DNA of 64,000 bases from Synechococcus sp. CCY 9618. Its GTDB lineage: Bacteria > Cyanobacteriota > Cyanobacteriia > PCC-6307 > Cyanobiaceae. The notes under the pieces were generated by a model. That model saw only the letters and a program-made list of their open reading frames with translations. It ran no database searches and was not told where the DNA came from. This document shows, in pieces, positions 21,645 to 28,500 of this stretch (the stretch's first letter is position 1; every line of letters starts with the position of its first letter). The translations under genes and the position numbers were made by a program. The DNA lies in assembly GCF_019038415.1 (NCBI RefSeq), contig NZ_JAFKRG010000043.1, positions 1 through 64,000 of the forward strand, written 5' to 3'.

Positions 21645-22595
21645 TCAGGCCTGCACCTGGCGCAGAGGGCTGTCCGGGCTGGCGAACACCGGCAGCACCT
21701 CCCGCCGGAAGGCATCGGAGGCGCGGGAGCAGTAGCGGGCGGGATGGGTGATCAGCTTGAGCTGGCGGCGCACCATCAGGTCGGCCACCTGGGGCCGGTG
21801 CAGGGTGCCGGCGGCCAGCTCCCGCTCGATCGACACCACCGGCAGGAACGCCGCCCCCAGGCCGGCCTGGACGGCATTCTTGATCGCTTCGAAGGAGTTG
21901 AGCTCCATCTCGATCTTGAGCCGCTGCACGTCGAGCTTGGAGCGGCTCAGCAGCTGATCCACCATCTTGCGGGTGGTGGACTGGGCATCGAGGCAGACGA
22001 AGCCGAGCCGGTACAGATCCTCCTTGGTGAGCTCGGGCAGCCGGGACAGGGGGTGCTTGGGGGGCAGCACCAGGGCCAGCTCGTCGTTGGCGTAGGGCAC
22101 CACCTGCAGCAGGTCGTTGAGATCGGCCGGCAGTTCCCCGCCGATGATCGCCAGGTCGATCTGGCCGTTGGCCACGCTCCAGCCGGTGCGGCGGGTGCTG
22201 TGCACCTGCAGCTGCACCGCCACATCGGGGTACTTCTGGCGGAACAGGCCGATCATCCGGGGCATCAGGTACGTGCCCGTGGTCTGGCTGGCACCCACCA
22301 CCAGGGAACCGCCGCGCAGGTTGTGGAGATCGTCGAGGGCACGGCAGGCCTCCTGGCACTGGCTCAGGATCCGGTCGCAGTAGCTGAGCAGGAGGTGGCC
22401 CGCCTCGGTGAGCTGGGCCTTGCGGCCGCCGCGGTCGAACAGGGAGACATCGAGCTGCTTCTCCAGGTTCTGGATCTGCAGACTCACCGCCGGCTGGGTG
22501 ACGTAGAGGCTGTCGGCCGCCTTCTTGAAGCTGCCCTCGCTGGCGATGGCCCGCAGGATGCGGAGCTGGTCGAGGGTGAAAGGCAGATCTGCCAT
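21645..22595 (-). CDS. rbcR: LysR-type regulator RbcR (Ycf30)
   Basis: 316 residues from the ATG at 22595. It has an N-terminal winged helix starting [25 protein letters not shown], with [16 protein letters not shown] as recognition region, then an effector-binding domain (about 95-300) with [14 protein letters not shown]. This matches the RbcR/CmpR/CcmR group, which control RuBisCO or carbon-concentrating genes and sense metabolites such as RuBP or 2-phosphoglycolate. Its position beside ndhF supports RbcR. It is divergent from the NnrU gene. Confidence 0.88.
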
Positions 22596-22713
22596 GGGTC
22601 GGGGAGGCCTCAGAGGGACCGTTGGCCGGATCCGGCAGGCCGTGCGGAACTCTAGGGGTCCCGCCCGATCGCCAGAATCCTGCGGATACATCCGCCATCG
22701 CCCCCGCGCCCCG

Positions 22714-23466
22714 ATGCCCTCGTTGACGCTGATCCCGCAGGGCCCCCAGCACAGCAGCCTGGTGATGCTGGCCCTGCTGGTGGTCTTCGCCCTGATCCAC
22801 AGCGGCGGCGCCTCCCTGAGGGTGTGGGGTGAGGAGCGGATCGGAGCCCGGGCCTGGCGGCTGCTGTTCGCCGGCCTGAGCATTCCCTCGGCGGTGCTGG
22901 TGGTGGGGTACTTCCTGGCCCATCGCTACGACGGGGTGCGGCTCTGGAATCTCCAGGACCAGCCCTGGATCGTGCCGGTGGTCTGGACCGGCACGGCGAT
23001 CAGCTTTCTGTTCCTTTATCCGGCCACCTACAACCTGCTGGAGATCCCTGCCGTTCTGAAGCCCCGGGTGCGGCTCTACGCCACCGGCATCATCCGGGTG
23101 AGTCGCCATCCCCAGGCGGTGGGCCAGGTGCTGTGGTGTGCCACCCACCTGCTCTGGATCGGCACCAGCTTCACCGCCGTGGCCTGCGTGGGGCTGATCG
23201 GCCACCACCTGTTCGCCGTCTGGAACGGCGACCGCCGGCTGCTCCACCGGTTCGGCGCCGCCTTCGAGGAGCTGCGGGCCAGCACCTCGGTGCTGCCGTT
23301 CGCCGCCGTGCTGGACGGCCGCCAGAAACTGGTGGTGGAGGAATTCCTTCGACCCTCCCAGCTGGGCATCGCCATCGCCATCGGCGTGTTCTGGTGGGCC
23401 CACCGCTGGATCGGCCTGGGGGCCACGGCCTTCTCCCGCACCGCCCTGGCCCACTGGCTGGGGTAA
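22714..23466 (+). CDS. NnrU-domain membrane protein (possible zeta-carotene isomerase)
   Basis: 250 residues with about six membrane helices. Conserved NnrU features are [28 protein letters not shown] and [14 protein letters not shown]. Plant 15-cis-zeta-carotene isomerase (Z-ISO), a heme membrane enzyme, belongs to this family, and crtP-crtB lie about 4 kb away, so a carotenoid role is plausible; it remains an inference. The ATG at 22714 gives the usual family length. It lies upstream of ndhF on the same strand. Confidence 0.75.
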
Positions 23467-23563: not shown

Positions 23564-25576
23564 ATGCCCACCGCCTCCGAACTTGCCTGGCTGATTCCGG
23601 TGCTGCCCCTGCTGGGGGCCTGCCTCACCGGCCTGGGGCTGATCACCTTCAACCGCACCGTCAACCGCCTGCGCAAGCCGGTGGCCCTGTTTCTGATCAC
23701 CACGGTGGGCATGGCCGCGGTGCTCAGCTTCGCGATCCTGGCCGAGCAGCTGGCGGGGGCCAGCGGCACCGAGGTGCTGTTCGACTGGGCGGGTGCCGGC
23801 ACGTTCCACCTGCAGATGGGCTTCCGGGTGGATGCCCTGGGGGCGGTGATGCTCTCGCTGGTCACCACCATCGCCCTGCTGGTGATGGTCTATTCCGATG
23901 GCTACATGGCCCACGACAAGGGCTATGTGCGCTTCTTCACCTACCTGGCCCTGTTCAGCAGTTCGATGCTGGGGCTGGTGATCAGCCCCAACCTGCTCGA
24001 GATCTACGTGTTCTGGGAGCTGGTGGGCATGTGCTCCTACCTGCTGGTGGGCTTCTGGTACGACCGGGACGCCGCCGCCAACGCGGCCCAGAAGGCGTTC
24101 GTGGTCAACCGGGTCGGCGACTTCGGCCTGTTGCTCGGCATCCTCGGCCTGTTCTGGGCCACCGGCAGCTTCGCCTTCGAGGAGATCGGCGAGCGACTCG
24201 CGGCGGCGGTGGCCGGCGGCGGCCTGCCCACCGGGGTGGCCGTGCTGCTCTGCCTGCTGGTTTTCATGGGGCCGATGGCCAAGTCGGCCCAGTTCCCCCT
24301 GCACGTCTGGCTTCCCGATGCCATGGAGGGCCCCACCCCGATCTCCGCCCTGATCCACGCGGCCACCATGGTGGCCGCTGGCGTCTTCCTGGTGGCCAGG
24401 CTGCAGCCGGTGTATGAGCCCTTCCCGCTGGTGCAGGCGGTGATCGCCGTGATCGGCACGATCACCCTGTTCCTGGGAGCCTCCATCGCCCTCACCCAGA
24501 TGGACCTGAAGAAAGGGCTGGCTTACAGCACCGTCTCCCAGCTGGGCTACATGATGCTGGCCATGGGCTGCGGCGCCCCGGTGGCGGGCATGTTCCACCT
24601 GGTCACCCACGCCTTCTTCAAGGCGATGCTGTTCCTGGGCTCCGGTTCGGTGATCCACGCCATGGAGGAGGTGGTGGGCCACGAGCCGGTGCTGGCCCAG
24701 GACATGCGCCTGATGGGCGGCCTGCGCAAATTCATGCCCGTCACCTCCGCCACCTTCCTGGTGGGCTGCGTGGCCATCAGCGGCATTCCGCCCCTGGCGG
24801 GCTTCTGGAGCAAGGACGAGATCCTCGGCCAGGCCTTCAACAGCTTTCCGCTGCTCTGGGCCATGGGCTTCATCACCGCCGGGATGACGGCCTTCTACAT
24901 GTTCCGGCTCTATTTCCTCACCTTCGAGGGCCCCTTCCGCGGCCAGGACGCCGCCATCCGCTCCCAGCTGCTGACCGCAGCAGGCAAGGTGTCAGCCGAG
25001 GGCTCCGAGGAGGGTCACGCCGGCCATGCCAGCCATCCCCATGAATCGGGCTGGCAGATGGCCGCACCCCTGGTGGTGCTGGCGGTGCCGTCGGTGCTGA
25101 TCGGCCTGCTGGGCACCCCCTGGAACAGCCGTTTCGGCAACCTCGTGGATCCCGCCGAGGCCGCCGAGGTGGCCGAGCATTTCCACTGGAGCGAATTCCT
25201 GCCCCTGGCCGGCGCCTCGGTGGCCATCTCCAGCCTGGGCATCGGCATTGCGGTGCTGGCCTATGCCCTGCACCGCATCGATCTGGCCACCGCCGTGGCA
25301 GGTCGCTTTCCGACCATCAATCGCTTCCTCGCCAACAAGTGGTACCTGGATGCCATCAACGACAAGCTGTTCGTCCAGGGCAGCCGCCGGCTGGCCCGAC
25401 AGGTGCTCGATGTGGATTCCAAGGTGGTGGACGGCGTGGTCAACCTCACCGGCCTGCTCACCCTGGGCAGCGGCGAGGGTCTCAAATACTTCGAGACCGG
25501 CCGCGTGCAGTTCTATGCCCTGATCGTGTTCGGCGGTGTGATCGGTCTGGTGCTGCTGTTCGGCGCCTTCGGTTGA
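23564..25576 (+). CDS. ndhF: NDH-1 subunit 5 (NdhF)
   Basis: Large antiporter-like proton-pumping subunit of NDH-1 in the thylakoid or plasma membrane. The 670-residue protein from the ATG at 23564 has the glutamate of the helix-5 region in LEIYVFWELVGMCSYL, the lysine-containing GPMAKSAQFPLHVWLPDAMEGPTP, HATMVAAGVFLVAR, and a C-terminal lateral-helix region. It is probably the respiratory/cyclic F1 form because a D1-like ndhD follows downstream and no CO2-uptake genes are near. Confidence 0.94.
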   Translation: MPTASELAWLIPVLPLLGACLTGLGLITFNRTVNRLRKPVALFLITTVGMAAVLSFAILAEQLAGASGTEVLFDWAGAGTFHLQMGFRVDALGAVMLSLVTTIALLVMVYSDGYMAHDKGYVRFFTYLALFSSSMLGLVISPNLLEIYVFWELVGMCSYLLVGFWYDRDAAANAAQKAFVVNRVGDFGLLLGILGLFWATGSFAFEEIGERLAAAVAGGGLPTGVAVLLCLLVFMGPMAKSAQFPLHVWLPDAMEGPTPISALIHAATMVAAGVFLVARLQPVYEPFPLVQAVIAVIGTITLFLGASIALTQMDLKKGLAYSTVSQLGYMMLAMGCGAPVAGMFHLVTHAFFKAMLFLGSGSVIHAMEEVVGHEPVLAQDMRLMGGLRKFMPVTSATFLVGCVAISGIPPLAGFWSKDEILGQAFNSFPLLWAMGFITAGMTAFYMFRLYFLTFEGPFRGQDAAIRSQLLTAAGKVSAEGSEEGHAGHASHPHESGWQMAAPLVVLAVPSVLIGLLGTPWNSRFGNLVDPAEAAEVAEHFHWSEFLPLAGASVAISSLGIGIAVLAYALHRIDLATAVAGRFPTINRFLANKWYLDAINDKLFVQGSRRLARQVLDVDSKVVDGVVNLTGLLTLGSGEGLKYFETGRVQFYALIVFGGVIGLVLLFGAFG

Positions 25577-25598: not shown

Positions 25599-26318
25599 AT
25601 GATGGAGAGGCCCGGGAGCCCGCGGAAGGTGAGGCTGGCGAGGGAGCCCCACCTGGAACTGAAGGTTTTCTACCTCTGGGATCTGGGGGTCTCCGAGGCC
25701 CGTGACCCGGGTTTCCTCAAACCGCTGCAGTGGGACATCCCGCTGCTGGACGGCTACCGGCACGTCTTCATTCCGAACCGCTCGAGGAACCCGGGCAACC
25801 ATCATTTTCTGGGCTACATCAACCCTTCCCTCAACCGGGCCGTCGCGGCATGGCAACCCGACGTGGTCCTGGTGATGAACTACGCCTTCCTCAGCTATCT
25901 GCTGCTGCTGATCGATCCCCGCTTCTGGTCCATCCCCTTCCTGTTCCGTGGCGACTCCCACGACCTGGCCCGCTCCGGCGGGATCAGGGCCTGGCTGGGT
26001 CAGGCCCTGCGGCGGCTGATTTTCCGGCGGTTCTCCGCCTTCCTGGTGGTGGGCCAGGCCAATCGCACCTACTACCGACGTTGTGGTGTGCCTGCCTCCC
26101 GGCTCATCGATGCCCCCCATGCGGTCGACAACGACCGGTTCCTGGCCGCCGCCGATGATGCCCGCCGCGAGGCGCTGGCGCTGCGGGAGCGGCTGGGCAT
26201 TGCAGCCCATCACACCGTGGTGCTGTTCGTCGGCAAGTTCGTCGATGTCAAGCGGCCCTTCGACATCCTCGAGGCCTTCGGGCAACTGCCGGCGACCCTG
26301 CTGGACGGCGCGGGCTGA
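25599..26318 (+). pseudogene. Glycosyltransferase family 4 remnant, both ends missing
   Basis: Readable for 239 codons. The segment LEPHL-like EPHLELKVFYLWD, then [36 protein letters not shown] and [24 protein letters not shown] match the N-terminal half of GT4 glycosyltransferases up to the start of the nucleotide-sugar domain. The usual N-terminal strand (a hydrophobic start plus PIQY-type motif) is absent and replaced by MMERPGSPRKVR, and the whole sugar-nucleotide domain (EX7E) is lost. It stops abruptly at TGA 26316-26318, where a second remnant begins. It sits between ndhF and ndhD. Confidence 0.75.
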
Positions 26319-26794
26319 GCAACGTCCATGCTCTGCCTTTCCAGATCCAGCATCTGGGGACGCAGGGCTTTCACCCCTCCCACCTGGATTCCCACCATCA
26401 CATCCACACGATCCGCTGGATGCTTCCGGTGGTTCTGGGCCTGCAGCGCCGACACGCCATCCGCAAGCTCCGCAACACCATGAACGTCTATGGGTTGGGC
26501 GGCGACGGCGGCAAGGGGAACGGGACTCCCTCCCTGAGACTGCGGACCGCCAAGAGCGCCTGGAGGCTGGCCAGCCGGTTGGGCGGCAGCCGCCTGCCAC
26601 AGGTGTTCACCGGCCTGCATATCTTTCTGGCCGATCCCTCCCGAGCCGAATTTCTCTCGGCCGCCTCGATCGAACTGATGTGCCACCCCGGCCAGGGGGG
26701 GTTCGAGACGGAAACGACCCGGCTGCTCGATCCCTCCAGGCCCCTGCTGGATGGCCGTTACCGACTGCGCACCTACAACGACCTGCTCGCCTGA
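26309..26794 (+). pseudogene. ChbG/YdjC (HpnK-like) carbohydrate deacetylase remnant, N-terminal half missing
   Basis: A frame of about 162 codons, different from that of the glycosyltransferase remnant, reads [16 protein letters not shown], the metal-binding histidine motif of YdjC-fold deacetylases, then [17 protein letters not shown] and ends with [15 protein letters not shown] and [14 protein letters not shown]. The family N-terminus with its ADDFG motif is absent and there is no good start codon at the junction (first ATG 26420, after the His motif). The simplest reading is that one deletion removed the end of the glycosyltransferase and the beginning of this gene. Confidence 0.7.
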
Positions 26795-26864
26795 GTCAGG
26801 GCGGGGATCCCAGCGATCTGTGTGACAACGCCCATCCACGCGGTGCCCGGAAGGCCGGTATTTC

Positions 26865-26870
26865 TACACT
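26865..26870 (+). promoter_or_regulatory. Candidate minus 10 box of ndhD
   Basis: TACACT, identical to the hexamer before ndhF, 25 nt before the ndhD GTG. Confidence 0.4.
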
Positions 26871-26895
26871 CCGCCCAGATGAACAGCACCGTTCT

Positions 26896-28500
26896 GTGCC
26901 CTTTCCCTGGCTGAGCACCGCGATTCTGTTCCCGATCGGCGCGGCTCTGCTGATCCCCTTCGTGCCCGACAAGGGCGACGGCCGTCAGGTGCGCTGGTAC
27001 GCCCTCGGCGTCGCCCTCACCACCTTCCTCGTCACGGTGGGGGCCTACCTCAACGGCTACGACCCGGCCGATCCCGGCCTGCAGCTGGCGGAGCGGGTCC
27101 AGTGGCTTCCCGACCTGGGCCTGGCCTGGTCGGTGGGGGCCGACGGCCTCTCCATGCCCCTGATCCTGCTCACCAGCTTCATCACCGCCCTGGCCTGCCT
27201 GGCGGCCTGGCCGGTGACCTTCAAGCCGAAGCTGTTCTATTTCCTGTTGCTGGCCATGGATGGCGGCCAGATCGCCGTGTTCGCGGTGCAGGACATGCTC
27301 CTGTTCTTCCTGGCCTGGGAGCTCGAGCTGCTGCCGGTGTACCTGCTGCTGGCCATCTGGGGCGGCAAGAAGCGCCAGTACGCCGCCACCAAGTTCATCC
27401 TCTACACCGCCGGCAGTTCCCTGTTCATCCTCCTGGCCGGGCTGGCTATGGGCTTCTTCGGCGGGGGCGCCCCCAGCTTCGAGTACACGGTGCTGGCCGC
27501 CAAGCAGTTCGGCACCGGCTTCCAGGTGCTCTGCTACGCGGGCCTGCTGATCGCCTTCGGCGTCAAGCTGCCGGTGGTGCCGCTGCACACCTGGCTGCCC
27601 GATGCCCACGGAGAGGCCACGGCACCGGTCCACATGCTGCTGGCGGGGATCCTGCTCAAGATGGGCGGTTATGCCCTGCTGCGTTTCAACGTGCAGCTGC
27701 TCCCCGAGGCCCACGTCCAGTTCGCCCCCCTGCTGGTGATCCTGGGGGTGGTCAACATCATCTACGCCGCCCTCACCTCCTTCGCCCAGCGCAACCTGAA
27801 GCGCAAGATCGCCTACAGCTCGATCAGCCACATGGGCTTCGTGCTCATCGGCGTGGGCAGCTTCAGCGCCCTGGGCACCAGCGGGGCCATGCTCCAGATG
27901 ATCAGCCATGGCCTGATCGGAGCCAGCCTCTTCTTCCTGGTGGGTGCCACCTACGACCGCACCCACACCCTGCAGCTCGATGAGATGGGTGGGGTGGGAC
28001 AGAAGATGCGCAAGATGTTCGCCCTCTGGACGGTCTGCTCCCTGGCCTCCCTCGCCCTGCCGGGCATGAGCGGTTTCGTGTCGGAGCTGATGGTGTTCGT
28101 GGGCTTCGCCACCAGCGAGGCCTACAGCCTGAGCTTCCGCATCGTGATCGCCGTGCTCGCGGCCATCGGCGTGATCCTCACGCCGATCTACCTGCTGTCG
28201 ATGCTGCGGGAGATCTTCTTCGGCAAGGAGAACCCCCAGCTGGCCTCCTCCCACACCCATCTGGTGGATGCGGAACCCCGGGAGATCTACGTGATCTCCT
28301 GCCTGCTGGTGCCGATCATCGGCATCGGCCTCTACCCCCGTCTGGTCACCGACAGCTACCGGGCGGCGATCGAGGCCCTGGTCGACAGGGAGGCCACCGC
28401 CCTGGTCAAGGTGGGGCGGCCGCCCATGAAGGCGGTGATGGCCGGAGGAGCCTTCGCCAACCTGCCTCCCGCCCTGCTGCACGCCCCGGCCCTGGGCTGA
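26896..28500 (+). CDS. ndhD: NDH-1 subunit 4 (NdhD)
   Basis: Antiporter-like proton-pumping subunit. The GTG start at 26896 gives 534 residues beginning [19 protein letters not shown]. Key motifs are [42 protein letters not shown] (conserved Lys and His), [16 protein letters not shown] and [12 protein letters not shown]. The in-frame open region before 26896 is not coding-like, and the nearby ATG at 26879 is in another frame that stops after 11 codons. D1-like by length and by pairing with ndhF. Confidence 0.94.

Follow-up and report, generated by a model that had tools for sequence, protein, structure and literature searches.

An eroded GT4–ChbG gene pair between ndhF and ndhD in a Cyanobium genome, with intact and empty counterparts in related genomes

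The window, by which we mean the whole stretch of 64,000 nucleotides analyzed here, lies on contig C43 of a Cyanobium genome (G000) and carries fragments of two genes between ndhF and ndhD. These fragments are very probably (about 93%) what is left of a two-gene cassette, encoding a GT4 glycosyltransferase (GT) and a ChbG/YdjC deacetylase, that was ancestral at this place and decayed by deletions in the window lineage. An ancestor of the Cyanobium lineage would have carried the GT4 gene, followed by the gene for a ChbG/YdjC-type deacetylase, between the stop codon of ndhF and an element upstream of ndhD. Three deletions would then have taken 18 residues near the start of the GT, 63–64 nt whose loss shifted the reading frame, and 810 nt across the GT–ChbG boundary, and the sister clade of 15 genomes would have come to lack the cassette. 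The evidence comes from comparison of the window with a genus set of 42 genomes, G000 and 41 others.

Remnants in the window and intact pairs in relatives

Both genes that flank the remnants are intact. The ndhF gene (NAD(P)H-quinone oxidoreductase subunit 5; 23564..25576, + strand, start set by comparison with G005) lies in a frame that is open from 23492 and ends with the stop at 25576; the NCBIfam match starts at residue 25 of this frame and covers nearly the full length of the model (1207.6 bits, positions 1–673 of 675). The ndhD gene (subunit 4; 26896..28500, + strand, GTG start) likewise matches its NCBIfam model over nearly the full length (998.5 bits, positions 6–513 of 533). Near ndhF, a putative LysR-type regulator gene on the − strand (window positions 21645–22883) was noted by eye from its translation.

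The first remnant is an open reading frame of 239 aa (25599..26318, + strand), which consists of the GT4 N-terminal domain minus 18 residues and the start of the C-terminal domain, and ends at the frameshift. It scores above the cut-offs of two profiles of the GT4 N-terminal domain, PF13579 (37.3 bits) and PF13439 (30.8 bits), and reaches only 14.1 bits over just 38 residues with the sugar-nucleotide domain profile PF00534 (cut-off 26.4). The EX7E motif belongs to the C-terminal sugar-nucleotide domain of GT4 enzymes, and in the window the corresponding stretch, which reads ETWGLVVNE in the four intact copies described below, is deleted. The window copy is thus recognizable as a GT4 protein by its N-terminal domain and lacks the C-terminal domain with its EX7E region. 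The second remnant (26341..26794, + strand; first ATG at 26420), delimited by family match and alignment, is the C-terminal half of a ChbG/YdjC deacetylase in a different frame. It matches positions 105–229 of the 266 in PF04794 (YdjC) with 45.4 bits (cut-off 29.7) and falls short of a whole domain: the N-terminal NADD motif and the HLNLTE stretch, which have metal-site roles in YdjC/ChbG proteins, are both deleted. In these respects the initial annotation, which described a GT4 protein without its N-terminal strand or sugar-nucleotide domain, a ChbG/YdjC C-terminal half in another frame and two intact flanking genes, read the window correctly. Apart from the stop created by the frameshift, the remnant frames contain no stops, and their base composition resembles that of the flanks. 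A consensus scan of the spacer found no sigma-70 promoter-like site, and the two terminator-like sites detected (0.7 in shuffles) both lie within the coding remnants.

A profile search with PF04794 matched six of the 42 genomes, including G000 with a single match. Of the 41 other members of the genus, four (G005, G007, G017, and G021; G005 and G007 being metagenome assemblies) show the order ndhF, full-length GT4 gene, full-length ChbG gene, ndhD, the final 189 residues being all of ndhF that the G021 contig includes. This intact pair at the same site bears out the earlier proposal that GT4 and ChbG genes once stood between ndhF and ndhD and were reduced by deletion. The nearest intact copy is that of G005, whose proteins measure 425 aa (GT4) and 280 aa (ChbG) from the start codons chosen. 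The GT fragment is 79% identical to it (58.5–61% to the copies in G007, G017, and G021) and the ChbG fragment 75–77%; with an intact pair so similar at this very position in G005, the remnants are not chance matches. As disrupted copies of genes that are whole at the same site in relatives, they qualify as pseudogenes. Short forms like those in the window, which the initial annotation had named as evidence that would speak against decay, are absent from all four relatives with the cassette, where both proteins are full-length. From what the fragments retain, we infer that they are incapable of acting as either enzyme and that function has been lost.

When 55 GT4 loci from the genome collection were examined, a ChbG match (E 1e-6) was present beside just two, L084 and L085, the Cyanobium loci of G005 and G007. 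The flanks searched extended no farther than 6 kb in either direction and were shorter in several loci. ChbG matches with E 1e-20 or better occur in six of 400 family genomes and correspond to five Cyanobium sites and one match in G318 (34%); the 7.2 kb covered around the latter, where the contig ends shortly beyond the match, contains no GT4, ndhF, or ndhD match. The PF04794 match of G032 is on a different contig from its ndhD, and G005 has a second match on another contig. Full-length YdjC proteins were seen at these unrelated places, namely L003 (G005:C16) and L002 (G032:C6).

Sequence comparisons also give some indication of what the intact pair resembles. Among NCBIfam models, BshA gives the highest score with the G005 GT4 protein, and both this score (94.3 bits, cut-off 273.7) and that for MshA (69.3 bits, cut-off 462.5) fall far below the equivalog cut-offs. 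The solved structures closest to it by sequence are the group 1 glycosyltransferases 2jjm and 3mbo, followed by BshA (5d00). The G005 deacetylase matches PF04794 with 153 bits (cut-off 29.7) and is closest among NCBIfam models to chitin disaccharide deacetylase (NF002559; 109.1 bits, cut-off 227) and HpnK (TIGR03473; 88.2 bits, cut-off 232.6), scoring far below both cut-offs, so that it is not assignable as ChbG proper or HpnK; its closest solved structure by sequence is the chitooligosaccharide deacetylase 7vi8. BshA/BshB and MshA/MshB are GT4 and N-deacetylase pairs of low-molecular-weight thiol synthesis, whose deacetylases BshB and MshB are of the PIG-L type. The intact Cyanobium pair resembles them in that a GT4 glycosyltransferase is combined with a sugar deacetylase, but its deacetylase is YdjC-type, and its GT4 protein scores far below the curated cut-offs. 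Within the ChbG/YdjC family, the G005 protein scores well above the PF04794 cut-off, whereas the window copy represents the C-terminal half only. By analogy, the simplest reading is that the pair would have transferred an N-acetylated sugar to an acceptor and then N-deacetylated it.

States of the site across the genus and age of the decay

The states of the site can be ordered on a midpoint-rooted rpoB tree of 39 genomes. Within its clade, G005 (intact cassette) splits first, then G000 (scar), then a clade of 15 genomes with an empty site, and the supports along this ladder are 100/100, 97/96, and 98/97. In the 15-genome clade, the nearest to G000, the cassette is absent throughout (15/15) and only 88–121 nt separate the last sense codon of ndhF from ndhD, in agreement with the earlier view that the two genes would otherwise form a compact pair. 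Over all 42 genomes, the site contains the cassette in four, the scar in one, a spacer of at most 121 nt without cassette in 20, and a spacer of 243–344 nt in four. Eight further genomes have at least 1.3 kb upstream of ndhD with neither the cassette nor a nearby ndhF: ndhF lies farther upstream in G008, G023, and G039, the region reaches the contig end in G026, G035, and G040, and in G031 and G041 this holds for the stretch examined. For the remaining genomes, the contig end is too close (G037, G038) or the ndhD start is not covered (G020, G022, G027). Cassette remnants were also sought in nine genomes, some with short and some with longer spacers; four of the nine gave matches, of only 11–15 nt (E 0.03–0.43), which were taken as chance. 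GC-rich palindromes, possibly a terminator or a dispersed repeat, were noted by eye in the longer ndhD-upstream spacers of G029, G030, and G038. The cassette is present in G017 and missing from its sister G018, so that several losses or exchanges are required to account for the wider genus, and the patchy spread is compatible both with frequent loss and with movement between lineages.

Protein evolution in the remnants points to a recent decay. Between G000 and G005, omega over the shared codons is 0.195 for GT (221 codons) and 0.303 for ChbG (150 codons); between intact copies, where computable, it ranges from 0.12 to 0.47 and from 0.125 to 0.275, respectively. Amino-acid changes were polarised with G007, G017, and G021, dropping gapped columns and undecided ones (22 in GT, 16 in ChbG), and their numbers on the G000 and G005 sides are 8 versus 11 in GT and 8 versus 7 in ChbG. 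The resulting total of 16:18 has, as a crude count, a 95% interval of 0.42–1.85 for the ratio. In a likewise crude estimate, the neutral part makes up at most ~15% of the G000 branch assuming that the intact genes have an omega of 0.15, and at most ~36% assuming 0.30. Since the G000 side shows no surplus of protein change, the decay is probably recent, and the bounded neutral part suggests that GT and ChbG probably stayed intact for most of the time after the split from G005.

The empty site in the nearest clade also suits a different history, in which G000 received a G005-like cassette via recombination in ndhF and ndhD, flanks that would lend themselves to homologous exchange, and then lost part of it. 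The synonymous differences argue against this. Between G000 and G005, pS is 0.41 for GT and 0.36 for ChbG, compared with 0.32 for both ndhF and ndhD; a value for the cassette that is somewhat higher than that of the flanks, rather than lower, agrees with common descent at a single position and not with a recent import. In four blocks of 60 codons of ndhF and ndhD beside the cassette, G000 is closer to G003 than to G005 in every case, although in two of the four it is marginally closer to G005 than to G025 (pS 0.470 versus 0.488 and 0.245 versus 0.247). A recent transfer from a G005-like donor was rejected, as there is no clear local drop in synonymous difference. We regard acquisition by recombination in general as unlikely and favor decay of an ancestral cassette.

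The three deletions and their interpretation

Global alignment and repeat-anchored measurement against G005 both identify three large blocks that are missing from the window, with smaller gaps besides in variable stretches; the spacer is otherwise collinear up to ndhD. The first loss (54 nt, in frame; junction at 25634..25639, + strand) took 18 residues near the GT start, probably with the first strand of the fold, and lies on a 6-nt direct repeat, GCTGGC, present at both ends in G005. The second (63–64 nt; 26304..26318, + strand, placed by alignment with G005) shifts the GT frame and thereby terminates the open reading frame 25599–26318; it can also be read as a 63-nt loss plus one missing base. 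The third (810 nt; 26341..26345, + strand) is the main scar, which removed the GT sugar-nucleotide domain together with the N-terminal half of ChbG and joined GT to ChbG in phase. It coincides with a 5-nt direct repeat, CCAGA, at both G005 ends, inside a 12-nt repeat with one mismatch. The initial annotation had explained the junction by one deletion and placed the loss of the GT end and the ChbG start near 26300–26312. The alignment with G005 rules out the single-deletion model, since three separate losses are needed, and the main junction lies ~30 nt farther downstream.

Repeats of this length are rarely expected at the ends of such deletions. Deletions of equal length were placed at every possible start in the G005 cassette: for the 54-nt loss, 1.4% of 2070 positions gave a repeat of 6 nt or more, and for the 810-nt loss, 1.5% of 1314 positions gave one of 5 nt or more; the scan covered these two losses, and the repeat lengths measured in G005 serve as a proxy for the ancestor. 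We infer the mechanism and the order of the deletions from such comparisons: two of the three may have arisen between short direct repeats, by replication slippage or microhomology-mediated joining. The locus is similar to known deletion pseudogenes on short direct repeats in its truncated homologues, in having two of three junctions on repeats of 5–6 nt and in its intact flanks. It shows no essential difference from bacterial deletion pseudogenes, and what it offers here are intact, scarred, and empty states at one site in one genus.

The junctions could also be thought to arise from an assembly or sequencing artefact, with the cassette really intact and the contig misjoined. The assembly (2.93 Mb) is in 133 contigs, G000 is the single genome sampled of its species, and the second deletion, if read as a 63-nt loss with a single missing base, includes a common type of error. 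Such an artefact would have to produce three gaps in one stretch of 1.2 kb, each between collinear sequence, and the missing DNA is on no other contig: outside C43, the G005 spacer (2266 nt) matches G000 only over 93 nt (79%) and 37 nt (86%). In addition, the genome is listed as 100% complete and 0.35% contaminated, and we consider an artefact very improbable.

The phase of the losses bears on whether the short frames are still used. Both the 54-nt loss and the 810-nt loss preserve the phase, as the 63–64 nt loss does except for one base; three of three has a probability of 1 in 27 by chance and is weak evidence. That the frames encode functional proteins, one with the GT4 N-domain and one with the C-half of ChbG, or a functional fusion through the frameshift, is the least credible reading: the sole in-frame stop is the one made by the frameshift, and the low omega relative to G005 could by itself mean continued selection, but the EX7E region, nearly the whole sugar-nucleotide domain, and the NADD and HLNLTE stretches are deleted, none of the four cassette relatives has such short forms, and a young decay, with no more than ~15–36% of the G000 branch neutral, predicts low omega as well.

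The element upstream of ndhD and other contents of the gap

Downstream of the remnants, the window contains a conserved bipartite element, identified by comparison within the genus, which consists of TGTGTGACA and TTTCTACACTCC spaced 42 nt start to start (26819..26873, + strand). An exact match to TTTCTACACTC lies upstream of ndhD in 37 of the 39 genus genomes with an ndhD start, including G000, and every one of the 36 genomes that match both search patterns has TGTGTGACA or a near form at the fixed distance of 42 nt (start to start); in G017, G019, and G039, one or both patterns were missed by a base or so. The joint pattern occurs once in G000, preceding ndhD, and in 32 of 300 family genomes from five of 59 genera (four besides its own), as a strict pattern that misses some Cyanobium genomes with the element. 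A reversed control pattern gave no match in any listed genome of the 300-genome family sample, and ndhD lies downstream of the element in all 20 loci inspected. From this conservation and position, the bipartite element is probably the ndhD promoter region with a putative activator site; a simple sigma-70 consensus scan does not call it. A conserved upstream element of its own for ndhD may explain why the flanks were spared, as inserts between ndhF and such a promoter would leave the control of ndhD alone.

The gap holds other genes elsewhere in the genus. It spans ~3.9 kb in G008 (L072), where it encodes a Uma2 protein and a possible potassium channel (below cut-off); ~6.5 kb in G039 (L073 with L181), with a haem peroxidase carrying RTX repeats; and ~2.9 kb in G023 (L081), with a different GT4 gene on the opposite strand. 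In G026 (L075) and G040 (L076), more than 3.3 and 2.8 kb, respectively, extend upstream of ndhD to the contig end, with no ndhF. The gap looks like a recurrent place of insertion. A more far-reaching version seems quite unlikely: that the gap is a recurrent Cyanobium landing site owing to the separate element in front of ndhD, and that the decay, its losses being in phase except for one base, passed through a translated GT–ChbG chimera kept open by selection. Such selection would favor the shortened product or serve to keep the ndhF–ndhD transcript translated.

Among the paper titles found in a literature search, none concerns this locus. Taken together, the locus is an ordinary pseudogenised cassette, which leaves the knowledge of gene decay unchanged, with an unusually readable series of states: at one site in one genus, the intact, scarred, and empty states of a two-gene insert can be placed on a tree, and the junctions separate three deletion steps. 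These comparisons suggest that inserts of different kinds can be accommodated between ndhF and ndhD in several lineages of Cyanobium, with the element upstream of ndhD remaining fixed.
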